Below, piece by piece: positions 1,833-23,227 of a stretch of DNA of 47,509 nucleotides. Each line of letters starts with the position of its first letter. The first letter of the stretch is position 1. Below the pieces are notes generated by a model. The model searched no databases. It saw nothing but the letters and a program-made list of their open reading frames with translations, and was not told the origin of the DNA. The DNA is from Catenovulum maritimum (GTDB lineage: Bacteria; Pseudomonadota; Gammaproteobacteria; Enterobacterales; Alteromonadaceae): NCBI RefSeq assembly GCF_001050375.1, contig NZ_KQ130508.1, positions 1 through 47,509 of the forward strand, read 5' to 3'. Made by a program: the position numbers and the translations under genes.

Positions 1833-3524
1833 TTAAACCGAGAAATTCCCCATTTCTTTATTTAATGTATTGACGTTACGTTTCAAACTTTCACCAGTCT
1901 CTGCTACTTTCTGAATTTCAATCTCTGTGTGTCCTGTTGATTCAAACAAGCTATGTAAATTTTGGTTTAAATCTTCAGTTACACTGGTTTGTTGTGTCGC
2001 GGCCGTTGCAACGACAGCATTGACTTCATTAATTACGGTAATTGATTCATTTACCTTTTCTAAAGATGCTTTTGAAGATTCGGCAACTTCTTGAGCTTCT
2101 ATGCTAGTATTTTTACTAACTGTCATTGATGAAACAGCATGTTGCGCACCCGCTTGTAATTTAGTGATCATTTCTCTAATTTCTTCAGTACTATTTTGTG
2201 TTCGACTTGCTAATGTGCGGACTTCGTCTGCAACAACAGCAAAGCCTCTACCTTGCTCACCCGCTCTGGCTGCTTCAATTGCTGCGTTTAAAGCAAGTAA
2301 GTTAGTTTGCTCCGCAATTTGCTGTATAACTTCTAAAACAGAACCTATAGCATCCGTTTCTTTTTCTAATTGATTCATTGCATCTGAAGACTTATTAATA
2401 TCTTCATTTAGTTCTTTTAATTTATTAACTGCTTGCATCAATGCGGTTGATGTCTTGTTAACTTCATTACTCGCATCGTGAGCAGCTGTCGCGGCAGTAT
2501 TACCGTTATTTGTGATTTCTTGCGCGCTTGCAACCATTTCGTAAATGACTTGGTTTAAATATTCAGTTTTAATTTTCTGTTCTTGGACTAAACCTAAACT
2601 AGTTTTGGAAGATTGCTCTAAAAATACAGTTGAATCATTAATAACATTGGCTTCTGCGGTCACATTTAGCACTATATTTCGGATTTTATCTGAGAAATCA
2701 TTGAATGATTTAGCACACCGGCCCACTTCGTCATCAGACTCTACTTTTAATTTATGAGTTAAATCACCTTCACCATGGGCAATATCTTTTAATGCTTCAT
2801 TCATGTTGTCTAAGGGTTCAAGTGCTTTACGAATTAAGAAAAAGCAAATGACACAGGAAATAATTAATATACTAATACTGACTAAGCTGGTTTTTGTTGC
2901 CAGACGACTAATCGTCATATCGAATTGGTTCACTTTTTCTTGAATCTTGAGTTCTATATCATCTATAAAGTAGCCTGTGCCTAATAGCCAGTCATAGCCT
3001 GGTATTTCAATTACATAGGCTAGTTTGGGGGCTTGTTCTGTATCCCCTAATTTTTTAAATGCGGTGTAGTGGACAAATCCAGTCCCATCTTGAGCAGCTG
3101 CTGCCATATTTTCAAGCGGGTGTTTTTTACCTTGTAGTTTAACTCTATCAATTTTTAACTTTTTTGGCGGTCTCGGACCAACACGACCATTTGCAATTGC
3201 ATACATATCGTAACTATTGATGAAAAAATAAGTACCATCACCAAAGTTCAAATTGTAGATGTAGTTTTTAATTAATTGATCTCTTTGTTCTGAAGGGGGC
3301 ATTGAAAGCGTGTCTTTCATAGCGGAGAGTGCAACTAATACTAGCGACTTTAACTCATTTTGTTTTTGCGCAAGCAAGGATTTTCTTTCGTTTTCAATTT
3401 GAGTATTTTTAAGCGTCTCTAGCTCATTCACTGTACTCCAAGCAACAGCGGCAGATACGATAATAAGTGGAATGGCACAGATAATTAATAATTTGTTCTT
3501 AAGCAGTTTTATTTTTTTAAACAT
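1833..3524 (-). CDS. methyl-accepting chemotaxis protein with sCache_2 sensor
   Basis: Chemoreceptor of 563 residues. Order: TM1 (about 12-31); a periplasmic single-Cache domain of the sCache_2 type (about 35-205), recognisable by [12 protein letters not shown], the PLENM and GTGFVHY segments and a [15 protein letters not shown] end; TM2 (about 210-233); HAMP; and a long cytoplasmic coiled coil whose tip near residues 405-430 carries [16 protein letters not shown]. sCache_2 domains usually bind small organic acids, so a uronate-related carboxylate is a plausible but unproven ligand. It is transcribed alone, away from a 732-bp intergenic region, with kdgT next downstream on the same strand beyond a terminator. 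Confidence 0.93.
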
Positions 3525-4256: not shown

Positions 4257-5420
4257 ATGAAAACTTCTTATTCGTATCTCATGAGCCTTGTGTGGTTTAT
4301 CTGTGCTACTTCCTTTTCGGTACTAGCCCAGTCTCATGTTGAACAAGATGGTATAGTAATTGTTGAAGCGGAAAATTTTTCAACTCAGCATTTAGATGAG
4401 AAACGCCGTTGGGTCGTTTTTTCAGCTAATCAGCATCAACACAATTTACAAGATAGTGACTTACCTCATTTTGAGACAGCCAGCGGTCAAAAATATATAG
4501 AGGTTTTACCAGACACCAGAGCTAGTCATTATGAAACGCTAGTTCGAGGAGAAAATTTTACTGATCAGGGCGGAAACATAGCTGTGCTTTCATACCCAAT
4601 TTTATTTAATCAAGCAGGAAAGTATTATATTTGGGCCAGAGCATATAGTTCTAATAGTGAAGATAATGGTGTGCATTTTGGTTTAAATGGCAATTGGCCT
4701 GAAAGTAGTCGGCGCTTGCAGCTGTGTCTGGGTAAATATCAATGGACTTGGTCTTCTGCACAACGTGTTCCAGAGAACCATTGCGGTGTTCCCAATACCA
4801 TTAGTTTAGATATTCCTCATGCCGGCGTACACAATGTCATGGTATCTATGCGAGAAGATGGTTTTGAGCTGGATAAATTTATCTTAACCCGAGATAAAGG
4901 TTTCAAACCAAATGGGCTAGGAGGCGAAGAAACGCTTTCTATAACGAATCCTCTGCCAGAAAAAGAGATATTGCATGGTATAAATGAATACAAGCGTATT
5001 TTATTTGCAACTGAAGATTTCGTCGTCTCAGGTAAAGATCACAAAGCTTATTATAAGAATTTCACCGAGCAAGCACTTGCTATTGATAGCGCCAAGTTAG
5101 AAAATCGAGATAGATACTTTTCGGCTAAGGCGGTTGTTGACAGCAAAGACGTGGGCATCAACCAGCTTGTATTAGTTACTTTAGCTGAAACCAAAGGCGA
5201 ATCTAGCTATAAAATATTACTCAACAACAAAGTCATCGCGAATTTTACGAATCCTAAATCTACACAGGACAAACAGGAAGTCTATTTTAAAATCAATAAT
5301 ATTGAGTTGAGAACAGGTGATGTGTTAGAGGTTGAAGCTATGGCCGTGGGTAAGGGGAGAAGTGACGTTTCACAGGGGCTGTGGCGAGCTTTAGTACTTG
5401 TCGGTGAGAGAGTGCTATAA
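4257..5420 (+). CDS. secreted protein of two carbohydrate-binding-like modules
   Basis: A 387-residue exported protein with a signal peptide cleaved near residue 24 (VLAQ). Residues about 30-220 form a CBM6/CBM35-like or GH115-C-like beta-sandwich, with an EAENF start, YYIWARAYS and a closing LDKFILTRD strand. Residues about 250-387 are a second module ending in LWRALVLVGE. It resembles the N-terminal module of the lipoprotein at 15504-17681, with matching YKILLNN / YRLLVNN and LEVEA ... RAL / ISIES ... QAL segments. I see no catalytic domain, so it probably binds or presents the glycan. AAAGG precedes the ATG at a good distance. Binding function is inferred from fold-like features and context only. 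Confidence 0.65.
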   Translation: MKTSYSYLMSLVWFICATSFSVLAQSHVEQDGIVIVEAENFSTQHLDEKRRWVVFSANQHQHNLQDSDLPHFETASGQKYIEVLPDTRASHYETLVRGENFTDQGGNIAVLSYPILFNQAGKYYIWARAYSSNSEDNGVHFGLNGNWPESSRRLQLCLGKYQWTWSSAQRVPENHCGVPNTISLDIPHAGVHNVMVSMREDGFELDKFILTRDKGFKPNGLGGEETLSITNPLPEKEILHGINEYKRILFATEDFVVSGKDHKAYYKNFTEQALAIDSAKLENRDRYFSAKAVVDSKDVGINQLVLVTLAETKGESSYKILLNNKVIANFTNPKSTQDKQEVYFKINNIELRTGDVLEVEAMAVGKGRSDVSQGLWRALVLVGERVL

Positions 5421-5760: not shown

Positions 5761-6669
5761 TCACTTAGGTGCAACATCTTGATAGCTAGCATTGGGATAA
5801 TCAGCCATTTTTATCGCATCAAGGTACAAATAGTGGTCATTTTTCATCACACTTAAATCACCATTTAAATATAAACCCCATGATGGATAAATACCTTTAT
5901 CATCATTGTAACCAAACTGTATATCATGCTTGTTTAGTACTTTTTTGCCATCTATCCAGAGTTCTAGCAGGCCTGTTTTAGCACTTGAGTAATCTACTTT
6001 TACATGCAAAACGAAATCGACCCATCTGTCTAAATAATCACTTTTTTTACCCGGAATGGTAAAAGCTTCGGTGCCTTTTCCTGTTCTGGTAATACTTTTT
6101 TCATCTGGATCCCATTTCCACGAACCTTCCATGCCGTTTTTGGTTAAGGTTAAATGAAAAGGAGGATTTCTTGAATGTTCTTTTAGGCGTTTATCTGCAC
6201 TGCCATGTATTTGAAAAAATAACCAATTATTAAGTTCATCTCGAGTACCGTCACTCGGGAAATAGAAACTGAACCCAAACCAAGCTTCAGCGCCCATGAC
6301 AGTATCCGTTTTATAACCATGGAACATAGCTTTGCGATCAACATTATCTATTTTAGTTTTATTTCCATTATAAGCCGCAGGGTTTTTATGCTTCCAACTG
6401 AGTTTAGCTGAATAGTTTCCCTCGCGAACAATATTCTTTTCAATATTAAAAGCGTGATTGCCTTGCAGTTGATTAAACATGAAATTTTTCGGCAAGTCAG
6501 CTTTTAACCCAGGTGTAAAACCTCTCGGGCTTTGAGCGTTCCAGCCTTGATTTTCAAAGGATTCAATTACTTTGTATTGCGGGTTAGCAAAAGCCAGATT
6601 GCTCAAAGTTAAACTTGTGAAAGAGGCCAAACATAGACTTGCCAATCCACCCAACGAAATACGGTTCAT
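5761..6669 (-). CDS. secreted polysaccharide lyase, PF14099 (heparin lyase I / PL20-like)
   Basis: Exported protein of about 302 residues with a signal peptide ending at LAFA. It shows the jelly-roll pattern of the Polysacc_lyase family (PF14099): EAWFGFSFYFP, NWLFFQIHG, then WVDFVLHVKVD followed by LELWIDGK and a GLYLNG strand. Members cut uronic-acid polymers such as glucuronan or glycosaminoglycans by beta-elimination. I chose the ATG at 6669 over one 12 bases upstream because GGGAG sits 5 bases before it and it starts the signal peptide directly. It is followed upstream by the IclR gene in the same direction, separated by a terminator. The exact PL family and linkage cannot be fixed from sequence reading alone. 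Confidence 0.75.
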   Translation of the reverse strand: MNRISLGGLASLCLASFTSLTLSNLAFANPQYKVIESFENQGWNAQSPRGFTPGLKADLPKNFMFNQLQGNHAFNIEKNIVREGNYSAKLSWKHKNPAAYNGNKTKIDNVDRKAMFHGYKTDTVMGAEAWFGFSFYFPSDGTRDELNNWLFFQIHGSADKRLKEHSRNPPFHLTLTKNGMEGSWKWDPDEKSITRTGKGTEAFTIPGKKSDYLDRWVDFVLHVKVDYSSAKTGLLELWIDGKKVLNKHDIQFGYNDDKGIYPSWGLYLNGDLSVMKNDHYLYLDAIKMADYPNASYQDVAPK

Positions 6670-6736
6670 ACCGACTCCCATTTTAAATAATAAATACTTG
6701 ATAGCATGTTAGTTGGCTATTTGAGCTTAGTTAAGT

Positions 6737-6773: not shown

Positions 6774-7538
6774 TTAGATAACTGCGTTTAATTCAGCTTT
6801 AAAGTATAGTTTTGTACCAGCTTCTTTTACTTGTCTAGCCACAGATTCAATTAAATCGGGTGTAAACTCAGTAATGTGCGCTGTGATACCAATCGCAGCT
6901 ATTGGGTTACCTCTGTAGTCATAAATTGGCGCTGCTAAGCACCTAACTTCATTGGCATATTCTCTTTCGTCCATAGCGTAACCTATGGCTACTACCTTTT
7001 TGATTTCTTCTTTGACGGCTTCAACCGTCAGTAATGTTTTATCAGTTCTTTTAACAAAACCAATTTCATCATAAATATCTTGGATTTTCTTATCGTACAT
7101 ATGCGCTAAGAAAATTTTACCTGTACTGGAGCAATGCAGGGGCGCCAAAGTACCTTGTCGTGAAGCTATTTTGGTCGGCGTTGGACTATCACAAACTTCA
7201 ATTATTAATGAATTATAGCCACTTGGCACTGCTAAATGTGCAGAAAACCCAGTTGCTTTAGCTAATTCATGCAATACAGGTACGGCTTTGTCTCTAAGTT
7301 TATTAGTCGACACCATCTGTAAACCAATGTGCAGAAGGCTATTTCCCGCAAAATAAAATCGTCCTTGTTTTGAAGCCATTTGTTCATGGATTAAAGTTTT
7401 TAAGATCCTGAAAACCGTTGTATGTGGCATATCTAGCTGAGTTTCAATTTCAGATGCAGTTAACCCTTGGTCATTTTCTGACAGCATTACCAATATCTTA
7501 CAAGCGTTTTTTAGGTTAGGAATTAGATAATCGTTCAT
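6774..7538 (-). CDS. IclR-family transcriptional regulator (KdgR-like)
   Basis: DNA-binding regulator of 254 residues. A winged helix-turn-helix occupies about residues 8-65 (LTASEIETQLDMPHTTVFRIL), and an IclR effector-binding domain fills the rest, with the typical GTLAPLHCSSTGKIFLA stretch and YAMDEREY-N-V-C-A-PI ending. IclR members such as KdgR control uronate and pectin genes and respond to KDG-type metabolites. Its position between a lyase and a divergent chemoreceptor makes it the probable local regulator of this polysaccharide locus. AGAGG lies upstream of the ATG at a good distance. The divergent promoter region carries two inverted repeats that may be its operators. The ligand is inferred from family and context. 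Confidence 0.88.
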   Translation of the reverse strand: MNDYLIPNLKNACKILVMLSENDQGLTASEIETQLDMPHTTVFRILKTLIHEQMASKQGRFYFAGNSLLHIGLQMVSTNKLRDKAVPVLHELAKATGFSAHLAVPSGYNSLIIEVCDSPTPTKIASRQGTLAPLHCSSTGKIFLAHMYDKKIQDIYDEIGFVKRTDKTLLTVEAVKEEIKKVVAIGYAMDEREYANEVRCLAAPIYDYRGNPIAAIGITAHITEFTPDLIESVARQVKEAGTKLYFKAELNAVI

Positions 7539-7564: not shown

Positions 7565-7594
7565 TTGTCATTAGTTGTTTAACAAAAGTGACAA
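7565..7594. promoter_or_regulatory. nested inverted repeat upstream of the IclR gene
   Basis: Outer arms TTGTCA and TGACAA enclose inner arms TTGTT and AACAA. The repeat begins 27 bases upstream of the IclR start, a usual position for autoregulation. Operator role is inferred. Confidence 0.4.
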
Positions 7595-7628
7595 TTTCCA
7601 ATTCAGTTGTTAAGATTACGTTATTAGT

Positions 7629-7656
7629 CACAATTGGTCAATTTATTTCAATTGTG
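7629..7656. promoter_or_regulatory. candidate operator CACAATTG-N12-CAATTGTG
   Basis: Perfect 8-bp inverted repeat separated by 12 bases, 32 bases upstream of the chemoreceptor ATG at 7689. The half-site TTGTGAC recurs upstream of the first sulfatase and of the TonB receptor, which suggests a common regulator, possibly the adjacent IclR protein. Confidence 0.45.
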
Positions 7657-7688
7657 GTCATTATGGTTCTTTTCCTAAGGTGCAATAA

Positions 7689-9746
7689 ATGAAAGTATTC
7701 AATTTACTTAAAATTAAAACTAGGATAATCCTCTTAGTCGCTATTCCATTAGTTGTGACTCTTATGTTAGCGGTCGAGAAACTGGATAAGGCTTGGGATG
7801 AGCTAGAAAATGTTGAAAAATTGGATACGCTTCAAAAGTATGTTTATGTCGCTGCCCCGTTATTATCGGCGTTACAGCAGGAGATTCTTTATACCAAGAT
7901 GTATTTGGGACCGGGTACGATAAACGAGCCAACTGGAACTGAATTTTATCAAGATATGTTGGATAAGAGACCCGCGGTTGATAAAGCTTTAAAGGCTTAT
8001 CGGGAATTCATCAATGATGAAGCTAAATATGCGGAATTCAGTATGTTTGTTGAAGATCTTAACGCGGTAAAAACTTATTTATCTAAATTAGATTTTATTC
8101 GTGATCTTGCAAATAAACGGTTAAAGAAATTAGAAAACCAAGATAAAACAGATGGAAAATTTACATGGACAGTTCGATCTTATCAAAACATCGCAGATAG
8201 CTTAATTAAAAGTACCAACCAAGTGGTTTTGATTGCCGCAAAAAATGCACATTTGTCGTTATTAGCCAACGCATTTAAAAATCTAATTTATGCTCAGGAT
8301 AATGCAACTTTACTGGTTAGTTCAATTTATCGCGGTATATCTGGCTCTGTATCTATCAATACTTATGGTGCATTGATGAAGCAAGCCGCATTAGAAGCAG
8401 CCTACCTTGATAGTTTCATCCTGTTTTCTGCTCCTCAGACTGTAGATTATTTTAAACAAGAATTATTGAATCAGGACTATTATAAATTCGCAACAACTCA
8501 ATATGAGCAAATTAGAAGAAAATCGAAAACCTATTTAGATAACCCCATTAATATCGATAAGTCGGAATGGTTAGAAAATGGTAGGTTAATTAGTTTGAGC
8601 TATGAAAAAGTGATAGATCGAACACTAGAAAATATTGAATTAACCAAAAACCAGCAAATCGATCAAGCTCAAACTCAAGTTTATAATATTATTGGTTTGA
8701 TTAGCTTTTTAATTATTACCCTAGTTCTACTCTCTTTAAAAATAATTATGAGTATTAATACACCATTAAAAACCCTAATGGCAGACTTAAAGAAACTCGC
8801 CGACACTAAAGATATGACGCTGAGAAGTCACATTGAAGGCCGCAATGAATTGAGTTTAGTTGGCTTAGCATTTAATTCTTTAATCAGCGTTTTTGAACAA
8901 ACCTTGTCAAATGTTAGAGAAAAAATTATCTCTTTAGATCTTATTTCAAAGCGCGTATCTAGCTCGATGCGAGAGTCCATGGATTTGATCCAAAACCAGA
9001 CTACAGCGACAGATAATATATCAGTTGCAATTAATGAGATGACCTCAAGTATTTATGCTGTATCTAAAATGGCTTCGGATACGTCTGATACTGTACAAAG
9101 AGTTTCGGAAATTTCCATTGAGAGCGCAGAAGATGCATCTCAAACTAAACAAACCATAGATAACTTAATTATTGAGTTAGGGGATACCAATAAGCTTGTT
9201 GCAAACTTGAACGAAGAAGCGGGTCGAATTAGTAATGTTTTACAGGTTATACAAGGCATTTCAGAACAGACCAATTTACTTGCTTTGAACGCTGCTATTG
9301 AAGCTGCAAGAGCGGGTGAGATGGGGCGAGGTTTTGCCGTAGTAGCAGATGAAGTTAGAAGCCTTTCTAAGCGTACTCAAGATTCAACAGGTCAAATCCA
9401 AAGCCAAATTGAAGAGTTAATTAGCGGAGCTTCTTTAGCTTCAGAAAAAATGGATACCCTGCAAAAAAGTGGTCTAGCTGCTGTCTCAATTGTCGAAAAA
9501 AGCACACAATCTTTTGGAGTGATTAAGGCTGAATTGGAGCAAATTACGGATATGTCTGGTCAAATCGCCGTTGCAGCAGAGCAACAAACTAATGTGGCTG
9601 ATGAAATTAATAAGAGAATCCACGCAATTAAAGATGATTCAGAAACCTTACATGAAAAAAGCAGCGACACACTGTCATCAATTGAAACCTTGTCTAACAA
9701 TGGTGAACAATTGCTAGAAAACATTTCACTATTTCACTTTAAATAA
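7689..9746 (+). CDS. methyl-accepting chemotaxis protein with NIT-like sensor
   Basis: Chemoreceptor of 685 residues. TM1 is at about 12-29. A large helical periplasmic domain (about 35-330) follows, resembling the nitrate/nitrite-sensing NIT fold, with an LLSALQQEILYTKMYLG stretch that parallels the family ER-LSAGYLGS region only loosely. Then come TM2 (about 335-353), HAMP, and a signalling coiled coil with the [16 protein letters not shown] tip near residues 527-547. AAGGTG precedes the ATG. It is divergent from the IclR regulator and next to the S9 hydrolase, so it may report on a product of polysaccharide degradation. The ligand cannot be read from the sequence. Confidence 0.9.
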   Translation: MKVFNLLKIKTRIILLVAIPLVVTLMLAVEKLDKAWDELENVEKLDTLQKYVYVAAPLLSALQQEILYTKMYLGPGTINEPTGTEFYQDMLDKRPAVDKALKAYREFINDEAKYAEFSMFVEDLNAVKTYLSKLDFIRDLANKRLKKLENQDKTDGKFTWTVRSYQNIADSLIKSTNQVVLIAAKNAHLSLLANAFKNLIYAQDNATLLVSSIYRGISGSVSINTYGALMKQAALEAAYLDSFILFSAPQTVDYFKQELLNQDYYKFATTQYEQIRRKSKTYLDNPINIDKSEWLENGRLISLSYEKVIDRTLENIELTKNQQIDQAQTQVYNIIGLISFLIITLVLLSLKIIMSINTPLKTLMADLKKLADTKDMTLRSHIEGRNELSLVGLAFNSLISVFEQTLSNVREKIISLDLISKRVSSSMRESMDLIQNQTTATDNISVAINEMTSSIYAVSKMASDTSDTVQRVSEISIESAEDASQTKQTIDNLIIELGDTNKLVANLNEEAGRISNVLQVIQGISEQTNLLALNAAIEAARAGEMGRGFAVVADEVRSLSKRTQDSTGQIQSQIEELISGASLASEKMDTLQKSGLAAVSIVEKSTQSFGVIKAELEQITDMSGQIAVAAEQQTNVADEINKRIHAIKDDSETLHEKSSDTLSSIETLSNNGEQLLENISLFHFK

Positions 9747-12552: not shown

Positions 12553-14022
12553 ATGTTAAATAGGCGTAATTTCTTACTCGGCGCTGCAGCAGTAGGCGGT
12601 GTTGGGGCTTTATCTCAGTTAGATTGGTTTAAAGCATTAAAAAAAGAATATCCAAATGTCTTGATGCTTATTGTCGATGATTTAAATGATTGGGTTGGTG
12701 CTATGAATGGCCATCCAAATGCCAAAACACCTAATATTGACCGCTTAGCTGACCAAGGTACTTTGTTTATGAATGCCCATGCTTCTGCACCTTTATGCGG
12801 GCCTTCTAGAGCCAGCATCATGACTGGTTTATCGCCTTCAACAACAGGAATCTATGGCCATATTAACGATAACGATATTAAGCGCGCCAGTGATAAAACG
12901 GCTCAATCTGTATTCTTGAGTGAATATTTTAGAGAGCATGGTTATTACACGGCAGCTGTCGGTAAAGTTTTCCATCAAAAAGTAGCAGCTGGCAGCTTTG
13001 ACGATTATGGTGGCCGAGTTAAAGGCTTCGGTCCTTACCCTGAACAAAATATGGTTTGGGATGATCCTAGAACCAATACAGATTGGGGACCATTTCCGGA
13101 AAAAGATGAGCAAATGCCGGATTATGATTCAGCTCATTGGATCGCGGATAAGCTAAAGCAAGCGCATGACAAACCATTTTTTATGGCATGCGGATTTCTT
13201 CGACCTCACGCTCCTTGGCATGTGCCACAAAAGTGGTTTGATTTACATCCTAAAGAAGACGTAACTTTACCTCCGTATTTAATTCAAGATATGGCAGATG
13301 TGCCTGATATCAGCAAACGTATAACCGATCACCCTATGATGCCGACTACCGAGTGGGCAGTTGAAAATGGTGAATATCGCAATATTGTCCAAGGTTATTT
13401 AGCCAGTGTTTCTTTTGTCGATTCATGTGTCGGTATCGTGTTAGATGCACTTGAAAACAGTCAATATGCTGATAACACAGCTGTTGTGTTATGGGGTGAT
13501 CACGGCTACCACATAGGTGAGAAAGAAAAATTTGCAAAAATGACGTTGTGGGAAAGAGCAACTAGAACTCCGCTAATTATTAAGCCACCTAAATCTAAAG
13601 GCAAACAAGTCACTAATCGCCCTGTCAGTTTACTCGATTTATATCCGACTCTAGTAAAAATGTGTGGCTTACCTAGAAACCCTGCAAATGAAGGCCGAGA
13701 TCTGACCCCTTTATTGAATGATCCAACAACTAAGTGGGAACACGCAGCGCTAACCACGTATGGCGCAAAAAATCATGCTGTTAAAACTGAAAGGTATAGA
13801 TATATACGTTACGAAGACGGTTCCGAAGAATTATATGACCATAAAAAAGATAAAGATGAGTGGGTAAATTTGGCGAATGATCCTGCTTACTTTGAAATAA
13901 AGCAAAAACTTGCCGAAGAGATCCCTATAGAAGATGCGCCTTGGTCTAACAAAACTTATTACACGGGTAATGATTATTTTAATCAAAAAACCCTAGAGGC
14001 AGGTGGCAAAGGCAAGATTTAG
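12553..14022 (+). CDS. Tat-exported type I sulfatase (iduronate-2-sulfatase-like)
   Basis: Hydrolyses sulfate esters on glycans in the periplasm or outside. The 489-residue protein starts with a twin-arginine signal (RRNFLLG, residues 4-10). The formylglycine motif C-G-P-S-R begins at Cys82, metal ligands include the VDD pair at 41-43 and a WGDHGYHIGE segment near residue 316. Overall it resembles iduronate-2-sulfatase-like S1 sulfatases (possibly S1_7). Cys82 must be converted by a formylglycine-generating enzyme, and none is encoded in the window. GAGG lies 5 bases before the ATG. The BNR_4 lyase and the duplicated lipoprotein follow on the same strand with short gaps, which suggests one operon. 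Substrate is inferred from context. Confidence 0.9.
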   Translation: MLNRRNFLLGAAAVGGVGALSQLDWFKALKKEYPNVLMLIVDDLNDWVGAMNGHPNAKTPNIDRLADQGTLFMNAHASAPLCGPSRASIMTGLSPSTTGIYGHINDNDIKRASDKTAQSVFLSEYFREHGYYTAAVGKVFHQKVAAGSFDDYGGRVKGFGPYPEQNMVWDDPRTNTDWGPFPEKDEQMPDYDSAHWIADKLKQAHDKPFFMACGFLRPHAPWHVPQKWFDLHPKEDVTLPPYLIQDMADVPDISKRITDHPMMPTTEWAVENGEYRNIVQGYLASVSFVDSCVGIVLDALENSQYADNTAVVLWGDHGYHIGEKEKFAKMTLWERATRTPLIIKPPKSKGKQVTNRPVSLLDLYPTLVKMCGLPRNPANEGRDLTPLLNDPTTKWEHAALTTYGAKNHAVKTERYRYIRYEDGSEELYDHKKDKDEWVNLANDPAYFEIKQKLAEEIPIEDAPWSNKTYYTGNDYFNQKTLEAGGKGKI

Positions 14023-14094
14023 TTCTGGCCTCGCTCGTTAATTTAGTTTCAGTTATTTAAAAAATTCAATAATTTAGGTTTAGGTTTGTTTACT

Positions 14095-15498
14095 ATGAAA
14101 GCAATATTCCAAAAAAATTTACGAGATTTTACATATCTCAAAATAATTACTTACGTAGCAATTGTAATTTTTCTATACACTTTTTTCTTGCCAAGAGCTG
14201 TATACGCTGAAGTAAAAGTCATCAACACACTTGCACTGGATAATGTTTGGTCTGGACACAGAATCAAGCCTTATTTATTAACCCGTGGTGAGCACCAATT
14301 TGTTGCTTATTTCGATGCAAATCGTCAAATGACTGTCGGTTATCGAGCACTTAATGGCAAATGGCGCTATTACAAAGTAGATAGCTGGTTAGGCTGGGAT
14401 AGTCATAACTATGTGACTATGGAACTTGATAAAGAAGGTTATCTGCATGTTATGGGAAATATGCATGCAGACCCATTGGAATACTTTAGAACGAGCGAGC
14501 CTTATAATGTGAGATCGTTGAGGCGAGTTGCACAGTTAGTCACTCCTGAAGTTGAACAACGAATGACTTACCCAATATTTTTATTAAATAAAAATAATGA
14601 TTTGATTGTTAAATACCGAGATGGTGGCAGTGGTAACGGCAGCGAGATCTACAATATTTATAATACAGAATCTAAAACTTGGTCAAAATTACACAATCAA
14701 CAATTTTTAGATGGTGAAGGCTTAATGAGTGGTTACTTTGAAGGTCCTCGTTTGGGCCCTGATGGTTATTTTCATTTAATTTGGGTATGGCGTAATTCAC
14801 CCAATGCGGCGACCAATCATTCTTTATCTTATGCAAGAAGCACAGACTTAGTTCATTGGGAGGATTCTAACGGGCAATCTATCTCATTACCTGTCACCTT
14901 GAAAAAAGCAGAAATAGTTGCGCCAGTACCACCATTTGCAGGCATGATTAATGGTAATGTAAAACTGGGGTTTGATAGTAAAAACCAGCCTGTTATTACT
15001 TATCATAGATATGATCCTAAAGGTAATACTCAAATGTTTTTAGCGCGCAAAGAGGGTAAAGGCTGGATAAATACGCAAATTAGTGATTGGAAAAATTTCC
15101 GTTGGGACTTTGGTGGTCATGGTTCATTAGGCCGTTTTGCGGTTAGACCCTATAACCCAATCGCGCTAAACGATAAAGAAATCGGGATCATGGTTAGAAA
15201 ACATGACCAAGTTATGCAGTTTGTGGTATCACAACAAACCTGGGAAACTGTAAGAGTTGAAGAGGCAGAGATTTTCCCTGCAATTATTACCCCTGACTCA
15301 CTAAAAGCTAATCAGCATATGTTTAGTGGTGAAATTAAATATAAATTAGAACATCAGGTATTTGAAGGCGTAGGCGATTTGAGTCCCAAAGGCGGACAGT
15401 ATTACCTTTCTTGGTATAGTCAACCAGGTAATAGAGATAAAGCGCATTCAACCATTAGTCCATCTAGTGTAATGCTGTTGCACGAAATAAAAGAGTAA
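14095..15498 (+). CDS. BNR_4 beta-propeller polysaccharide lyase, PL24/PL25 ulvan-lyase-like
   Basis: Exported protein of about 467 residues from the ATG at 14095, with an N-terminal hydrophobic signal at about 19-41. The rest reads as a seven-bladed propeller of the BNR_4 type, including RMTYPIFLLN, DGYFHLIWVWRN and the GGHGSLGRF segment. From memory, PL25 ulvan lyase uses His123, His143, Tyr188 and Arg204. Here His104 and His124 have the same 20-residue spacing, and Tyr159 and Arg175 the same 16-residue spacing. This supports cleavage next to glucuronic or iduronic acid in a sulfated rhamnan such as ulvan. It lies between a sulfatase and the duplicated lipoprotein. Another BNR_4 lyase family (for example PL37 or PL40) remains possible. 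Confidence 0.72.
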   Translation: MKAIFQKNLRDFTYLKIITYVAIVIFLYTFFLPRAVYAEVKVINTLALDNVWSGHRIKPYLLTRGEHQFVAYFDANRQMTVGYRALNGKWRYYKVDSWLGWDSHNYVTMELDKEGYLHVMGNMHADPLEYFRTSEPYNVRSLRRVAQLVTPEVEQRMTYPIFLLNKNNDLIVKYRDGGSGNGSEIYNIYNTESKTWSKLHNQQFLDGEGLMSGYFEGPRLGPDGYFHLIWVWRNSPNAATNHSLSYARSTDLVHWEDSNGQSISLPVTLKKAEIVAPVPPFAGMINGNVKLGFDSKNQPVITYHRYDPKGNTQMFLARKEGKGWINTQISDWKNFRWDFGGHGSLGRFAVRPYNPIALNDKEIGIMVRKHDQVMQFVVSQQTWETVRVEEAEIFPAIITPDSLKANQHMFSGEIKYKLEHQVFEGVGDLSPKGGQYYLSWYSQPGNRDKAHSTISPSSVMLLHEIKE

Positions 15499-15503
15499 AC
15501 ATA

Positions 15504-17681
15504 ATGAAAAAAATATTATCACCATTATTAATTGCAGTTGGTATTGCTGGTTGCACTCATAATAATTTAGAAGTCAGCCAAACTGCAGAGCAAAGCCCTG
15601 CTATTTCAACTAACACATATACTTTTGATGCGATTGATGATTTCACTAGCATAGAAAAAGGCAATGTGCCTTTTTACAAAGATACGAGAAATGATGCTTT
15701 GGGCATTGATGCCCGCATTTTGGAATACCGCGCAGGTTTTGCCCGAGCAAACAAAACATTTGAAGGTGATTCTGGCATTTATGACATCACAATTAAAGTT
15801 TTAACCGAAGAAGATGGCGAACCTAAATACAGATTATTAGTGAATAATCTGTTGGTTGGAACTTACCGTAGTTCGTATATAGGTGAAGATTCGCCTAAAG
15901 ACTTAAGACCAGAAAATCATACCTGGCAGGGTATAGCTTTAAAAAAAGGCGACATCATTAGTATAGAATCTAATGCTGATACTAATGGTGAAATCCCTGA
16001 ACATGGCGGTACTGCATGGGCTCGAGGTCGTTGGCAAGCGCTTGAGTTGACACCTGCAGGTCAGTTAACAGTTGACCGACCGCAGTTTAATAAAGTAAGT
16101 GATATTTTAATTGCTCAGTTTGATTTGCAACCGGATGCGGATGATGTGCACGCGATTGCTGCTTTAGGTTCTATGCTGAAACACCCAGATCTAAATGGCG
16201 TTAATCTAGTTGCAGTTGCAGGTACGACAGGCATCCAAACTGGCACTTATTTTAATTCGAATTCATTATTTGACTTGGCATTTGGTCGAGAAAATCTAAA
16301 CTGGACAGACGCTAGAGCTGATTGGCAAAAATCGGCGAAAATGATTCGAGATAGAGTTAAAGCTGTACTTGCACAAGGCGGTAAAGCTTGGGTACAAGAG
16401 GCTGGGCAATCGGATTTTACTCGGGATTGGGTTCAAGCGCTTTTAGAGTCAGGCGTACATCCGGCTATTGTTAAAAATAATGTAATAGTCGTGCAGCATA
16501 GCCAGTGGAATGAAGATAAAACCACACCAGAAGATTTAGCTTTTGTTAAGAAGATGACGGACTATCGCGCGATAGATGATGGCAATAAACCGCAACGTAA
16601 ATTTGATCTAAACAATCGACGTGGGCCATTAACGCCAGAATATGTTAATGCACAGAGTAAATGGTTAGAGAGTGCAATCTCTGCTGATAATTCCAATAAA
16701 GATGCTCAGGTATTGTGGTTAGAAGCAAAACGTATTATCGCTGAAATTGGTTTTAGCGCAAAACACTCGACTATTCCAAATGGCGGTGTTGATTTTTCAG
16801 ATATAGTTGAGACTTGGTGGATTTTAGATTTAGGCCAACCTGCGGTAACGATTCATGCCTTCTGGGAAAGGTATATAACCGATGTAGAGCTAGATCAGGT
16901 TGCTCCGCCAAAAGGCCGATTAGCAGTCGTGATAGATGGTAATTCACCTGATCCTGATGATATCGGTGCAACGCCTGTTATGTTTGCTTTACTTCAGCAA
17001 ACCGGGTTAAGCGATAGGTTGGTTCATATTTCACATTCATGTGACCTTGACCCATTTAGAAATAAAGCAAAATATCAAATTGACGCAACAAATGAGGCCC
17101 GTCGGCAAAAAATCCTTCACCACTTGAGTGGTAAAGGTATAGAGTTATTTGGTCCATTCAACAATTTACGCAATTATTATAATTGCCGTGTTGATCAGCA
17201 AGGTGCTATGAATGATTTAGTTGATGCAATAAATGCCTCAACGGCAGCGGATCCTCTATGGATAATAGAAGCTGGAGAGCCAGATTTAATTGGCTACGCT
17301 TTGCAGGCTGCAGATCAAAGTGTGACTAAGCACGTACATGTTGTTTCACATCACCCTGCAAATGATGACAGTGGCGATTACTTTACATGGCAACAAATTC
17401 TTGATTTTGGTGTAACAGAGCATCAAATAGGCGATCAAAATGTAGGATTACAAACTCCGATCTCACCTTGGGATTGGGCAAAAAATCACCCTAATCCAGG
17501 TTATCAATTTATTTGGCAAATGCTAGCCTATGCAGAACAAGATGGCATAGTACCATTCCAAGAAAATAAATTTGATTGCTCAGATGCGGGTATGATTTAT
17601 TGGTGGATAACGGGTGCTGATAAAGGGGGCAATAAGTTCTCAACAGCAGCCGATATGAAAGAGCTCCTATTCAGAAAGTAA
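15504..17681 (+). CDS. lipoprotein with beta-sandwich and two tandem nucleoside-hydrolase-like domains
   Basis: A 725-residue lipoprotein (lipobox GIAGC at about residue 17). Residues about 27-195 are a beta-sandwich related to the C-terminal module of the protein at 4257-5420. Two domains follow that look like DUF1593 / nucleoside-hydrolase folds. The first has FDLQPDADD near residue 209, the second DGNSPDPDD near residue 478; each then has an EAG-x2-D motif, a hydrophobic strand ending in a conserved His, and a closing DFSD / DCSD before a double Trp. The acidic loops recall the Asp-rich metal site of nucleoside hydrolases, so glycosidic hydrolysis is possible but unproven. It begins 5 bases after the lyase stop and is surely cotranscribed with it. 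Confidence 0.6.
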   Translation: MKKILSPLLIAVGIAGCTHNNLEVSQTAEQSPAISTNTYTFDAIDDFTSIEKGNVPFYKDTRNDALGIDARILEYRAGFARANKTFEGDSGIYDITIKVLTEEDGEPKYRLLVNNLLVGTYRSSYIGEDSPKDLRPENHTWQGIALKKGDIISIESNADTNGEIPEHGGTAWARGRWQALELTPAGQLTVDRPQFNKVSDILIAQFDLQPDADDVHAIAALGSMLKHPDLNGVNLVAVAGTTGIQTGTYFNSNSLFDLAFGRENLNWTDARADWQKSAKMIRDRVKAVLAQGGKAWVQEAGQSDFTRDWVQALLESGVHPAIVKNNVIVVQHSQWNEDKTTPEDLAFVKKMTDYRAIDDGNKPQRKFDLNNRRGPLTPEYVNAQSKWLESAISADNSNKDAQVLWLEAKRIIAEIGFSAKHSTIPNGGVDFSDIVETWWILDLGQPAVTIHAFWERYITDVELDQVAPPKGRLAVVIDGNSPDPDDIGATPVMFALLQQTGLSDRLVHISHSCDLDPFRNKAKYQIDATNEARRQKILHHLSGKGIELFGPFNNLRNYYNCRVDQQGAMNDLVDAINASTAADPLWIIEAGEPDLIGYALQAADQSVTKHVHVVSHHPANDDSGDYFTWQQILDFGVTEHQIGDQNVGLQTPISPWDWAKNHPNPGYQFIWQMLAYAEQDGIVPFQENKFDCSDAGMIYWWITGADKGGNKFSTAADMKELLFRK

Positions 17682-18029: not shown

Positions 18030-19613
18030 GTGCATTTTAGAATTTATTTAATTATAGCTGCGATTTTATTACTAAGTGGTTGTCACTCTGTTTCTAAATT
18101 AGCAAATGAAATAGAGTCAGCTACACAAAAAACTGAGGAAAATAGACAGCTAAAACAGGCTAATCCGAATGTTATTATTATTGTTGCAGATCAGATGCGC
18201 AGAGCGTCTATGGGGTTTTGGCAACAAGAAAAATTCCGTGGCGCCTTAAATGGTCGAAGCGATTATGTTGTTACGCCAAATCTAGATAAGCTTGCCAATG
18301 AAGGGATTGTGTTTACCGAAGCGATTTCTAATTACCCACTTTGTAGCCCATTTAGAGGCATGCTCATGTCTGGTATGTTTCCTCATAACAACGGTGTGAC
18401 TAACAATACCAGAATCGATCGCCCAACAGTTGGCTTAAGACCAGATATCACCTCACTAACAGAAGTACTTAATCAAGCTGGCTATAATACTGCGCTCGTC
18501 GGGAAGGGCCATTGGCATAATAATCTGCCACTATTTGATAATCATAGTCGTTACGTCGGTACAACTGTAGCCCCAGGTGGACATTTTATGAAAGGGACTA
18601 AATACGATACCTTTATTCCGCCAGGACCGGGTCGACAAGGTATTGAGTATTGGTATCAAACGCTTGGCCATAATCATGACAGCCCTATGGTTTATACAAA
18701 TGACACTAAGAGGAGTGGGGTGCCAGAAGGTCATCCTTATTTTCCAAAACGATATAGTGCTGTTGATCAGGCGGACGTCATTATTGATTATCTAAACAAT
18801 ACCCATCAACAAAGACAAGTCGATAAGCCTTTTTCTATTTTATGGACAATGGACCCACCACATAGCCCGTATCAAGCAATGGAAGACACAGATGAGGCTA
18901 TATACAATCAGTATTATAAAGATTTACCGATTGAAACCTTACTCAATAGACCTAATGTCAATATCGAGAGGGCGAAGAAATATGCTCGTATTTACTTCTC
19001 AATGGTGACAATAGTTGATCGTGAAATCGGTCGTATATTAGATGAGTTGAAAAGCTTAGGGTTAGATGAAAATACCTTAATTGTATTTACTTCTGATCAC
19101 GGTGAAATGATGGGTAGTCATAGCAAGATGACTAAAAATGTATTCTATGAAGAGTCGCTAGCTATTCCGTTAATTATTCACCAGCCGCAAAAACTAAAAC
19201 CACAAATTCAGGATTTATTAATTGGCGTTCCAGATTTTATGCCGACAATACTCGGTTTATTGGACCTTGAAGATAAAATTCCAGATTCTTTGGATGGGCT
19301 TGATTATTCGCCATTACTCCTTAACAAAAAACTGGGGATAGAGCGTTTACCCAAATCCAGTCTTTATTATGGTGCAGGCTCAAAATATGGTGTGAAAACT
19401 CATAAATACACTTATGTTGTCAGTGGTAACGGCGAGCTAGCCGCATTATTTAATAATTTAAATGACCCTTATCAACTAACGCCATTAAATTTTGCTGATA
19501 TTCCTACGCAAGATGTAAACTTTTTAAAACAGCAACTCGGCTATTGGCTCAAAAAAACAAATCATGATTGGTTTAAAGCTCGTAAATATCCATCCATGAT
19601 TGCCTATCCTTAA
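18030..19613 (+). CDS. lipoprotein type I sulfatase
   Basis: A 527-residue sulfatase anchored as a lipoprotein (lipobox LLSGC, Cys18). The active-site motif is C-S-P-F-R at Cys105: it keeps the Cys-x-Pro-x-Arg core needed for formylglycine formation but has Phe where most sulfatases have Ser. Metal-binding segments are VADQMR near residue 54 and FTSDHGEMMGSH near residue 350. The start is a GTG at 18030, with AGAGG 9 bases upstream, and it leads directly into the signal peptide. It probably desulfates a different position or chain length from the Tat sulfatase. It has its own promoter region and is followed by an inverted repeat at 19640-19665. Confidence 0.88.
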   Translation: MHFRIYLIIAAILLLSGCHSVSKLANEIESATQKTEENRQLKQANPNVIIIVADQMRRASMGFWQQEKFRGALNGRSDYVVTPNLDKLANEGIVFTEAISNYPLCSPFRGMLMSGMFPHNNGVTNNTRIDRPTVGLRPDITSLTEVLNQAGYNTALVGKGHWHNNLPLFDNHSRYVGTTVAPGGHFMKGTKYDTFIPPGPGRQGIEYWYQTLGHNHDSPMVYTNDTKRSGVPEGHPYFPKRYSAVDQADVIIDYLNNTHQQRQVDKPFSILWTMDPPHSPYQAMEDTDEAIYNQYYKDLPIETLLNRPNVNIERAKKYARIYFSMVTIVDREIGRILDELKSLGLDENTLIVFTSDHGEMMGSHSKMTKNVFYEESLAIPLIIHQPQKLKPQIQDLLIGVPDFMPTILGLLDLEDKIPDSLDGLDYSPLLLNKKLGIERLPKSSLYYGAGSKYGVKTHKYTYVVSGNGELAALFNNLNDPYQLTPLNFADIPTQDVNFLKQQLGYWLKKTNHDWFKARKYPSMIAYP

Positions 19614-19917: not shown

Positions 19918-20071
19918 TAAATTTACCAAAAAGACTTAAAATGATTGAAATTGTTATTAATGTGAATATAATTAAAGTTGTTTTATTAATGTTAATAACG
20001 TGGCGATTATGAAGTTAGTCACAGACACAACCCAAACTCAAAATACAAAATTAGAAAGTGGGAAATACGGT

Positions 20072-23000
20072 ATGACCAAACCAACTAACACATTTAAAAA
20101 TGCTAATTTACGTCCTAACAAACTAGCCTTAGCTTTAGCTGCTGCTGGCTTAATGTTTTCTGTCAGTGGCTCAGTTGTTGCTGCTGAGAAAGCTAGGCTT
20201 ACGGCTAAAGAAAAACAAGCACAACAGGAAGAAGTCGAGAAAATCCAAGTAACAGGTGTCCGAGGCGCGTTAGAAACAGCTTTGAATACTAAGCGTGAAG
20301 CGCTTTCAATTGTAGATGCGATTTCAGCTACTGATATTGACGCTTTACCAGCGCTTGATTTCGGTGAAGCATTACAAGCTATTCCAGGTGTTCAACTGGA
20401 CCGTTCAAGTGAAGGTCGCCAATCAGAAATCAGCTTACGTGGTTTATCTGGTGGTTTTGTTAAAACGACAGCTATGGGGCAAAGCTTTGCAACGCCAAGT
20501 CGAAGTTTTGGTCCTACAGGTGGCACTAATCCATTTGCGGCTTTCGAAGCTGGTGTGTTTGATGGTGTAACCGTTGTTAAAACTCCAACTGCAGATATCC
20601 AAGCGGGTGGTATGGCGGGTGTGGTTGATAAAAAACTACAAAAAGCTTTATCAAAAAAAGATGGTAAATACAGCGTCAGTTTAGGTGGCCGTTATGAAGA
20701 GCTAACAGGTAACTGGGATAAAAGTATCAAGCTTTCAGCTGCTAAGCACTTAATTAAAGATGAATTAGCGGTTGCTTTTAAATTTTCGGGTTCAGAGCAA
20801 ACATTTCGTCGTGATTTAGTACAAACAGCTGTTCATGTACCTTTAGTTAATACGGGGCGACTAGGCCAAGCTAGCTCTGATACCATTGGGGCTTATATTG
20901 ATAAGTACAATATTCCAGAAGGTTCTGTATTAAAAGGTGTGTCAAACCTTCGCAATGTCTCTGAGTACAGTGACGGTGATCGTGTTTCATTTACGGGTAA
21001 CGTAGAATGGAAACCAATTGAAAATTTAAAATTGGGTGCTCACGTGCTTTACACCGAGCGTGATTTAGGCGCTGGTACTAAAGAAGATGCTCAAATTGAC
21101 GCAGGTATCCATCGCAGTAATCGTAACCATGGCCGTGATTCGCGTATTGAACCTGATATGGATACGGCACCATTTATTTATAAAACAGATGAAGATGGTG
21201 TCGATCACTACATGGTTAGCAATGTTCATTTCACCAATGGCTACTATGGTTTTACTAACCGAAAAACAACATTCTTAGAAACTTCAAAAGGCCTTTTCTT
21301 ATACGCTGATTATGCTACAGATGATTGGGCGATTGACGCTAACTTTAATCAATCTGAATCTGAGAATCAGTTTATGAATATTGGTATTGAAATGGCTCAT
21401 AACCAACATCATAGTAATACTTCTAATCATAAAGCTGCTGGTGAAACCTCTAATACTGCTTTTCCTGCTGTACCAACTGGCATTGATGGTCAAATAAGCA
21501 CAGGCCAAGGTAATATGGAAGACATTATAGGTCAGTTTACTGGATGGGAAACATATAATTACGACAACTTAAATTGGAATACACCTACTGTAACAAGTCC
21601 GACGATTACCTCATATGACCCTTCAAATGATGGCCGACGAGTTCAATTCCGCGTAAATGGGCGTGTTGATACACCTATTCGAGACATGTCTGCTGCTGAA
21701 TTCAACGCCGAGCGTTATACTGAATTTGGCTTTGGCGATGCTTTTAACGTTTCATCTATTAAATTTGGATCACGTTACAGTAAAGAAACACTGGTTAATG
21801 ATGATCATCGTGTAAGTATTTCTGGTGTTGACTTGGCAAATGTTAGTGGCGGCCTAGTTAAAGATACACTGCTTACTGCTGAGCAAACCGCTTTCTTCGA
21901 TGGCAAAGTACCAAATACATTCGGACAGAATTCAGGTTGGCAGACTTTCAGTAACGATGAAGCTGCAGCAATTTTACAAACAAACTTGGCAGATTTATCA
22001 ACAGCCTCTGAAACGAACCCTTATCCGGTAGAAATTATACCGCCAAGTGGTTTTTATGAACGCATCAACAACAATACAAAGTTACCAGAGTTTTATCAAA
22101 ACAATTTCGATGTTGATCAAGAAATTAAAGCTGCTTATGTTATGGCAAACTTTACGGGTGATTTAGATGCTATCTCCTATACGGGTAACTTTGGTGTTCG
22201 TTATGAAGAAACTACTAATAGCTTCTTAGGTGCACGTACTGAAGTTATTGAAGAAGGTGGTAAAGAACTCGCTTTATCACAAATCGAGTACGAAACTGAC
22301 TATGCTAACGTATTACCATCATTTAATTTATCGTTGGATTTCTTAGATGATTTTGTTTTACGTACTGCTTATTTTAAAGCCTTAGTAAGACCTAACTTAA
22401 GATCTCAAAATCCAACACTAGCGATTAACGAAGGTAATACCAATATTACAGTCAATTTACCAGCGGCTGAATTAGAGCCATACACGGCTGATAACTATGA
22501 TTTATCATTAGAGTGGTATAACCGTGAGGGTAGTGCAGTATCAATTGGTGTGTTTAAGAAAGTAATTACTGATTTATTCTTAACTGAAAATCCGTGTCCT
22601 AGCTTAGGAGAATATACATATCTTGACGATCAATTTGGTGGATTTGTTGGTGAAGATTCAGAAGACCAAGGCAGTTGTTTACAAATAGCCGAATACACTC
22701 ATCCAGAAACAGGTGAGGTAGGTAACCGTAGTCTTAGGTTAACTCGTAAATACAATGCAGATAATGAAATTAAATTAACAGGTATTGAATTTGCGCTACA
22801 GCAAAAACTTGATTTCTTGCCATATCCTTGGAACGGGTTTGGTGGTGTGTTTAACTACACATATATAGATCAAACAGGTGATGAAGGCGATAACAAACTT
22901 TACAAAGTATCACCACGCTCATATAACTTAATTGGTTATTGGGAAAATGATGGCCTTAGCTTACGCTTAGCGTATAACTGGCGTGATTCGTTCGATATTC

Positions 23001-23227
23001 AAAGCTCTAATACTTATTATGGTATTGAAGATAAGAAAACGAAAGCGAGTGGTCGTTTAGATTTTTCAGGTAGCTATAAGGTAAGTAAAGGCCTTACCTT
23101 CTACTTAAAAGGCTATAACATTACCAATGAGCAAGTTTATGAATATTTTGGCAATGACGAGCGAGCAATGGCACGTATCGACTACACTGGTCGTATTGTT
23201 GAAGCGAGTTTGAACTACAGTTTCTAA
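20072..23227 (+). CDS. TonB-dependent outer-membrane receptor (TIGR01782 type)
   Basis: Imports oligosaccharides across the outer membrane using the TonB-ExbBD energy system. The start chosen is the ATG at 20072 (about 1051 residues), with GGGAA upstream and a signal peptide ending VVAAE; an in-frame GTG at 20000 would add 24 residues with no ribosome site. After the signal come a TonB-box-like stretch with VEKIQVTGVRGAL, a plug domain (IDALPALDFGEALQAIPGVQLDR, LRGLSG) and a long barrel ending in NYSF with the terminal aromatic residue typical of outer-membrane barrels. The VRGALETAL-N-KR pattern matches the Caulobacter/Xanthomonas-type glycan receptors. It closes the polysaccharide locus and is followed by a strong terminator. 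Confidence 0.93.
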   Translation: MTKPTNTFKNANLRPNKLALALAAAGLMFSVSGSVVAAEKARLTAKEKQAQQEEVEKIQVTGVRGALETALNTKREALSIVDAISATDIDALPALDFGEALQAIPGVQLDRSSEGRQSEISLRGLSGGFVKTTAMGQSFATPSRSFGPTGGTNPFAAFEAGVFDGVTVVKTPTADIQAGGMAGVVDKKLQKALSKKDGKYSVSLGGRYEELTGNWDKSIKLSAAKHLIKDELAVAFKFSGSEQTFRRDLVQTAVHVPLVNTGRLGQASSDTIGAYIDKYNIPEGSVLKGVSNLRNVSEYSDGDRVSFTGNVEWKPIENLKLGAHVLYTERDLGAGTKEDAQIDAGIHRSNRNHGRDSRIEPDMDTAPFIYKTDEDGVDHYMVSNVHFTNGYYGFTNRKTTFLETSKGLFLYADYATDDWAIDANFNQSESENQFMNIGIEMAHNQHHSNTSNHKAAGETSNTAFPAVPTGIDGQISTGQGNMEDIIGQFTGWETYNYDNLNWNTPTVTSPTITSYDPSNDGRRVQFRVNGRVDTPIRDMSAAEFNAERYTEFGFGDAFNVSSIKFGSRYSKETLVNDDHRVSISGVDLANVSGGLVKDTLLTAEQTAFFDGKVPNTFGQNSGWQTFSNDEAAAILQTNLADLSTASETNPYPVEIIPPSGFYERINNNTKLPEFYQNNFDVDQEIKAAYVMANFTGDLDAISYTGNFGVRYEETTNSFLGARTEVIEEGGKELALSQIEYETDYANVLPSFNLSLDFLDDFVLRTAYFKALVRPNLRSQNPTLAINEGNTNITVNLPAAELEPYTADNYDLSLEWYNREGSAVSIGVFKKVITDLFLTENPCPSLGEYTYLDDQFGGFVGEDSEDQGSCLQIAEYTHPETGEVGNRSLRLTRKYNADNEIKLTGIEFALQQKLDFLPYPWNGFGGVFNYTYIDQTGDEGDNKLYKVSPRSYNLIGYWENDGLSLRLAYNWRDSFDIQSSNTYYGIEDKKTKASGRLDFSGSYKVSKGLTFYLKGYNITNEQVYEYFGNDERAMARIDYTGRIVEASLNYSF

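Follow-up and report, generated by a model that had tools for sequence, protein, structure and literature searches.

A fused protein with two remotely related domains, one of predicted nucleoside hydrolase fold, in an ulvan-linked locus of Catenovulum maritimum

Domain organization of the protein

We analysed a 47,509-nucleotide stretch of the Catenovulum maritimum genome (NCBI RefSeq assembly GCF_001050375.1, contig NZ_KQ130508.1, positions 1 to 47,509 of the forward strand; hereafter the window). The subject of this report is a gene at 15504-17681 (+), which encodes a 725-residue exported protein (the window protein) composed of a signal peptide with a lipobox, an N-terminal module and two domains, half A and half B. 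The open reading frame begins with ATG, 5 bases after the stop of the preceding gene. The signal peptide, identified from the sequence, comprises residues 1-17 with the lipobox IAG-C17 (15504-15554), and is followed on the same strand by the N-terminal module (residues ~40-185; 15621-16058), half A (residues 190-462; 16071-16889) and half B (residues 463-725; 16890-17678; the structural model covers 459-725).

A first-pass annotation, made from the DNA letters and their open reading frames, had described the product as a lipoprotein carrying a carbohydrate-binding-like module and two hydrolase-like domains. The lipobox IAGC17 is clearly present in the window protein, but a strict lipobox is found in only 2 of the 16 proteins in which A and B are fused, the window protein being one of the two. 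A Pfam scan of the window protein at an expectation value (E) <=10 returned LPAM_1 at 13.7 bits, under its cut-off of 20, and no other family. The N-terminal module recurs in proteins of glycan loci, namely the product of the gene at 4257-5420 and some multidomain proteins with an A domain, but had no match to any Pfam family, carbohydrate-binding modules included, or to any PDB sequence. It is probably an accessory, sugar-binding module, and a candidate for a new carbohydrate-binding module. Its assignment as a GH115_C domain was rejected, because profile comparison did not connect it with the GH115_C region of the neighbouring protein. In Verrucomicrobiota, Kiritimatiellota and Bacteroidota the module was also seen as part of large A proteins with several domains (loci L113, L119, L106 and L091).

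Homology of the two halves

An internal duplication had been proposed from four pairs of motifs, and all eight are indeed present, once each and in the same order: DLQPDADD (starting at residue 207), EAGQSD (299), VVQHS (329) and DFSD (430) in half A, and DGNSPDPDD (478), EAGEPD (589), VVSHHP (613) and DCSD (691) in half B. They are retained in 16/16 fused proteins, with N replacing the D of EAGQSD in one and I replacing the C of DCSD in another instance. Direct BLASTP of half A against half B gave a weak match (27.7 bits, E 2e-4 for a single comparison, 73 columns). Comparison of the A profile (78 rows) with the B profile (27 rows) by hhalign gave a score of 50.2 and a probability of 95.9 over 235 columns, while 60 column shuffles reached at most 11.9 and a reversed profile 1.6; with smaller A and B alignments the probability was 97.5 over 196 columns. 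The A alignment (A4) contains 78 of 83 domain matches, after removal of rows >=88% identical to a retained row, and the 27 B rows represent 26 proteins (the window protein enters twice, as two overlapping cuts), 8 of which belong to the subfamily C described below.

In the profile alignment, 46 of 202 window-protein positions are identical. Fifteen columns are conserved to >=90% in both families, and 12 of these hold the same residue in both: D211/D483, D213/D485, D214/D486, G301/G591, H332/H616, N336/N620, I357/I642, D359/D644, N361/N646, D430/D691, S432/S693 and D433/D694. When columns were re-paired, 12 identities were reached in 0/20000 trials (maximum 5), although the alignment itself was optimised. 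As judged from their sequence profiles, halves A and B are remote homologues.

The protein did not, however, arise by duplication in place. A and B each also occur alone, so the protein joins two separate families and is not a tandem duplication. Half B stands alone in proteins of 298-330 residues in 4/196 family genomes (67-75% identity), on plasmid pAlt76 and in Persicobacter (49%). Half A is found alone or joined to other modules in many genomes: one alignment-based scan of genome contigs yielded 248 relatives, and the top 80 of these, representing 79 loci, were kept, while a contig scan with the single window protein as query returned no relative. Members from Pseudomonadota, Bacteroidota, Kiritimatiellota, Verrucomicrobiota and Planctomycetota appear in the tree of half A. 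Proteins with A followed by B are encoded at 16 distinct loci, the window's among them; the protein of one locus (L082) has no N-terminal module. In the tree, the fused A domains, 14 in number, group together (SH-aLRT branch support 99, in a quick tree with some long branches). A single branch also sets apart the 16 fused B domains, but its support, 35/97, is not firm and carries a long-branch warning. The simplest explanation would therefore be one fusion event. The window's genome additionally encodes a divergent A protein standing alone (G000:C1:520577-521470; L064 8599-9534), a paralogue whose neighbourhood includes sulfatase-cluster and FG-GAP-type-cluster genes.

Subfamily C, the third and a more distant one, is 22-31% identical to B. 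One member lies at 7565-8500 of locus L041, near porphyranase-type and GH2 genes, and relatives were found in L040 and L042-L048; the one in L043 adjoins a gene of the same porphyranase-type cluster.

Putative metal site and predicted structure

Nucleoside hydrolases (NHs) are described (PMC8910321) as carrying a DxDxxxDD fingerprint after strand 1, two aspartates of which bind Ca2+ together with another aspartate ~230 residues on; the residue directly before this last aspartate is His or, in other groups, Trp or Cys. The candidate fingerprint of half A, D207-xxx-D211-x-D213-D214 (16122-16145, +), has the first, seventh and eighth positions at NH spacing (D207, five residues, D213, D214) and lacks the third-position aspartate. 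That of half B, D478-G-N-xx-D483-P-D485-D486 (16935-16961, +), keeps the same three (D478, six residues, D485, D486) in a fingerprint one residue longer than in NHs. All four aspartates are invariant in each family (78/78 and 27/27 rows). Candidates for the last metal ligand lie in D430-F-S-D433 (16791-16802, +) and D691-C-S-D694 (17574-17585, +), where D430, S432 and D433 are invariant in 78/78 and D691, S693 and D694 in 27/27 rows. D433 follows D214 by 219 residues and D694 follows D486 by 208, which is a likeness to NHs in position only. The residue before the last aspartate is an invariant serine, Ser432 in A and Ser693 in B, and not the His, Trp or Cys of NHs. In its sequence pattern the site thus resembles the NH calcium site, with one defining NH feature missing.

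Loss of these aspartates in homologues would, according to the first-pass annotation, speak against its proposal; they are kept in all 78 A rows, all 27 B rows and 16/16 fused proteins. Altogether, 24 residues are invariant in the 78 A rows, which come from five phyla, and many of them are polar (D, E, Q, H, N).

The model of half B, built from 14 close rows, had a predicted local distance difference test score (pLDDT) of 82.5 and a predicted template modelling score (pTM) of 0.86. Foldseek matched it to 23 PDB chains at E<=0.001, all NHs or the NH-like XopQ by title, with probabilities of 0.99-1.00 and query TM-scores of 0.40-0.53. Half B is accordingly predicted to have the NH fold. The model of half A (pLDDT 95.1, pTM 0.93) gave 0 matches at E<=0.001 in PDB or in the viral library BFVD. 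Its first PDB rank was an OpcA/G6PDH chain (probability 0.95, TM 0.34), many of the next ranks were triosephosphate isomerases (TM near 0.2-0.3), and the NH 4i70 appeared at rank 11 as a weak match (probability 0.95, TM 0.39); in BFVD the top match was an uncharacterised protein (probability 1.00, TM 0.47), and ranks 6 and 7 were proteins annotated as NHs, weak at E>0.001. The Asp-rich hydrolase fold suggested earlier for both halves is thus recovered with significance for B and only weakly for A searched by itself. An NH fold of half A would follow mainly from its homology with B and from the similar order of secondary structure, since 15 predicted elements are common to the two halves in order, with additional short elements in A (strand 267-269, helix 334-338) and B (helix 645-649).

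Relation to described families

Neither Pfam nor NCBIfam contains a family matching the window protein. PF01156 (IU_nuc_hydro) gave no match at Pfam E<=10 to the window protein or to 13 B rows, PF07632 (Sde182_NH-like; formerly DUF1593) matched neither the window protein nor any of the 13 B rows, and both were absent from the 25 families listed, out of 36 weak ones, for the 78 A rows. Profile comparison by hhalign of each half with 25 PF01156 proteins stayed at noise level, within the maximum of 40 shuffles. Against three PF07632 proteins half A scored 21.6, barely within its shuffle maximum of 21.8 (40 shuffles), and half B 16.4 (maximum 23.9). A search of PDB sequences found no match for the window protein or the B profile, and one and two chance-level matches for the A profiles. 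Both PF07632/DUF1593 and PF01156, which the first-pass annotation had proposed to check, were thus rejected as parent families at this level, as neither Pfam nor profile comparison links them to either half, and its suggestion of a possibly undescribed enzyme accords with these searches, by which A and B fit no described family. Elsewhere in the window's genome, G000:C24:50448-50867 has a weak PF07632 match (33.9 bits).

Literature searches covered papers outside subscription. Among the papers listed on NH-like proteins none names DUF1593, and Sde_0182 or Sde182 appears in two; no paper combines nucleoside hydrolases with polysaccharide utilization loci, and those combining ulvan with nucleoside hydrolases describe, to judge by title and opening of the abstract, no such protein.

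These results bear on whether the window protein could be a genuine nucleoside (or N-riboside) hydrolase, serving the salvage of algal nucleosides and present in this locus by chance. The predicted NH fold of B and the mostly kept Asp fingerprint would suit such an enzyme, and PF01156 has no match in the window's genome, so that nothing there would make a salvage function redundant. However, the absence of IU_nuc_hydro matches and of profile similarity to NHs, the missing His, Trp or Cys, and the company that B keeps with ulvan-lyase-type genes among 196 relatives (below) make this explanation highly improbable.

Genomic neighbourhood

Directly upstream of the gene, at 14086-15498 (+), lies a gene for a BNR_4 protein nearest to GH145 of the BT3686 type (NCBIfam BT3686 model, 175.7 bits, cut-off 700). 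In PDB it matches the GH145-type structure 5muk at E 5e-40 and the ulvan lyase Uly1 much more weakly (E 7e-4). GH145 enzymes can show rhamnosidase as well as lyase activity and are similar to PL25 (PMC8406133). The gene is flanked further by sulfatase genes (PF00884) at 12553-14022 (+) and 18030-19613 (+) and a TonB-dependent receptor gene at 20000-23227 (+). The gene at 4257-5420 (+) encodes a GH115_C region followed by a C-terminal copy of the N-terminal module, and its relatives directly adjoin standalone B genes in L029, L030 and L151. On the opposite strand are genes for a PF14099 polysaccharide lyase (5761-6681, -), an IclR regulator (6774-7538, -) and a KdgT permease (452-1456, -), which together suggest a uronate-catabolic extension of the locus. 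Two genes for methyl-accepting chemotaxis receptors, one with a Cache sensor domain (1833-3524, -) and one at 7689-9746 (+), stand amid these glycan genes, and chemotaxis toward the same polysaccharide is possible. The glycan context noted in the first-pass annotation is supported, as the gene lies in a glycan-degradation locus of the ulvan-linked kind; within its 'lyase operon', the upstream 'lyase' is nearest GH145, and the PF14099 lyase gene is present on the other strand.

We then counted neighbours of relatives, using blastp clusters whose names come from scanning one or two members each, within ~8-9 kb on each side (some contigs were shorter) and excluding the duplicate loci L071, L072, L075, L076, L078, L129, L133, L134, L141 and L142. 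Around the 16 fused genes we found sulfatase genes in 12 loci, PL24-type in 7, GH145-type in 6, GH115_C-type in 5, DUF4861 and GH78 in 4 each, GH43 and GH88/105 in 3 each and GH10 in 0. Among 14 loci with standalone A in Alteromonadaceae, GH43-cluster genes were present in 7 and GH10-cluster genes in 6 (one cut by the end of the stretch), while PL24-type, GH145-type and GH88/105-cluster genes were present in 0/14, other lyases not having been searched for. GH43 directly adjoins standalone B in L031, L032 and pAlt76. In L051, L052, L053, L054 and L058, standalone A clusters with a LacI regulator, a Kelch/NanM-like protein and GH43, and 4/5 of these loci also have an IlvD/EDD-type dehydratase. 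A DUF4861 gene directly adjoins the fused gene in L033, L035, L037 and L080 and shares the locus with standalone B in L029 and L030; the literature search gave no mention of DUF4861.

Such neighbours could also point to a non-hydrolytic step, in which the domains would catalyse an elimination, a dehydration or an epimerisation of ulvan oligomers that contain uronate, the metal polarising the carboxylate, in a side path to that of the lyases. Ulvan pathways do include a dehydratase, P29_PDnc (PMC8511951), fused loci contain GH88/105 (3/16) and DUF4861 (4/16), and KdgT and the PF14099 lyase are encoded in the window. We consider this improbable, because the standalone A genes of Alteromonadaceae keep company with GH43 (7/14) and not with the PL24-type, GH145-type or GH88/105 genes searched for, and because hydrolysis and binding are the known functions of the NH fold. 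P29_PDnc itself was rejected as a relative, since such dehydratases are predicted with the PL37 family (PMC8511951).

Association with ulvan-lyase-type genes

B proper, that is, without subfamily C, is present in 12/196 family genomes, fused in 8 and alone in 4. A PL24-type query (nearest to Uly1 and short ulvan lyases; taken from the B genome G158) matched 16/196 genomes at E<=0.001, namely 12/12 with B and 4/184 without; at E<=1e-15 it matched 11/12 genomes with B and 0/184 without. This count combines two 196-genome searches, taken as one set. The Fisher values for the co-occurrence, 4e-16 and 4e-17, overstate independence because the B genomes fall in 7 genera. Outside this set, plasmid pAlt76 of Alteromonas sp. 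76-1 carries a standalone B gene, whose product WP_129740774.1 is annotated 'hypothetical protein', between GH43 and sulfatase genes; the growth of this strain on ulvan was attributed to pAlt76 by its authors (PMC6431674). As B relatives are found in ulvan-equipped bacteria, the protein may be an overlooked step of ulvan breakdown.

Discussion

We put at roughly one in two the probability that the window protein is an exported, modular, Ca-dependent glycan-active protein of ulvan breakdown that is probably catalytic. It would consist of an accessory module and two remotely related NH-like domains, with Asp clusters placed like the NH calcium site. Each domain may grip a sugar diol through a bound metal ion (Ca2+), in the way NHs do with the O2' and O3' of ribose, and a metal-bound water would then cut a glycosidic bond, which one being a guess, in the oligosaccharides released by ulvan lyases. 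Half B might take an ulvan-specific product containing rhamnose or uronate, and half A a xylose-containing part, the latter because half of the standalone Alteromonadaceae A relatives sit with GH43 genes; both substrates are guesses.

A number of observations weigh against this proposal. Half A has no significant structural match, neither half rises above noise in profile comparison with PF01156, and an invariant serine stands where NHs have His, Trp or Cys. The lyase match in one B genome, G189, reaches only E 6e-5, four genomes without B match the lyase better (E 2.5e-9 to 5e-7), and the 12 B genomes, being of 7 genera with 4 genomes in the window's own genus, are not 12 independent events. 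No activity is known for any A or B member. The main-chain sugars of ulvan are pyranoses, and therefore the substrate geometry of NHs would have to differ. Finally, Sde_0182 of Saccharophagus degradans (PF07632) keeps Ca2+ but shows no activity on nucleosides, and its proposed role is the binding of furanoses only (PMC8910321).

As this nearest precedent is proposed only to bind sugar, the main rival to catalysis is that both halves are catalytically dead, Ca-dependent binding modules, which would keep chains of ulvan or xylan at the cell surface within reach of neighbouring enzymes. The NH-like domain of Sde_0182 has been given such a role, both halves here lack the catalytic His of NHs, and the protein has an extra module and, in this genome, a lipobox. 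Nevertheless, the strict invariance of many polar residues makes catalysis likelier than mere binding: 24 invariant residues across five phyla would seem stricter than binding modules need. Moreover, many A and B proteins have just ~270-330 residues, which leaves no space for another catalytic domain. We therefore regard pure binding as unlikely, though to be taken seriously.

The window protein can be set beside several known systems. Sde_0182 likewise comes from a marine polysaccharide degrader and joins its NH-like domain to carbohydrate-binding and beta-sandwich domains (PMC8910321), but the window protein has no PF07632 match and carries two divergent NH-like domains in tandem. With the NHs proper (PF01156, groups I-III) it shares the predicted fold of half B, most of the Asp fingerprint after strand 1 and a last aspartate ~210-220 residues on, and differs from them by the lack of profile similarity, the serine before the last aspartate, a signal peptide and its place in glycan loci. 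The closest structures that Foldseek gave for half B include XopQ entries, and XopQ/HopQ1 effectors have the NH fold and a kept Ca site with no nucleosidase activity (PMC8910321); unlike the window protein, to which we found no sequence relation, they are injected by plant pathogens. GH145/PL25 proteins (rhamnosidases and lyases acting on Rha-GlcA) and PL24 ulvan lyases share loci or genomes with the family and probably the same pathway, although GH145 is a seven-bladed beta-propeller of unrelated fold (PMC8406133).

More tentatively, and at clearly less than even odds, A, B and C may together form an undescribed superfamily, made up of Ca-dependent glycosidases with the NH fold, present in at least five phyla of polysaccharide degraders and directed at xylan (A), ulvan (B) and agar or porphyran (C). 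In that case the tandem protein would cleave two bonds that follow one another in an ulvan oligomer.

Marine polysaccharide loci are mostly annotated by family, and the A and B domains matched no Pfam or NCBIfam family. If they only bind, the idea put forward for Sde_0182 would extend to a large set of proteins. If they are catalytic, they would bring a new class of fold to the enzymes that degrade glycans and fill a gap in the pathway of ulvan breakdown, with A as a widespread sister family.
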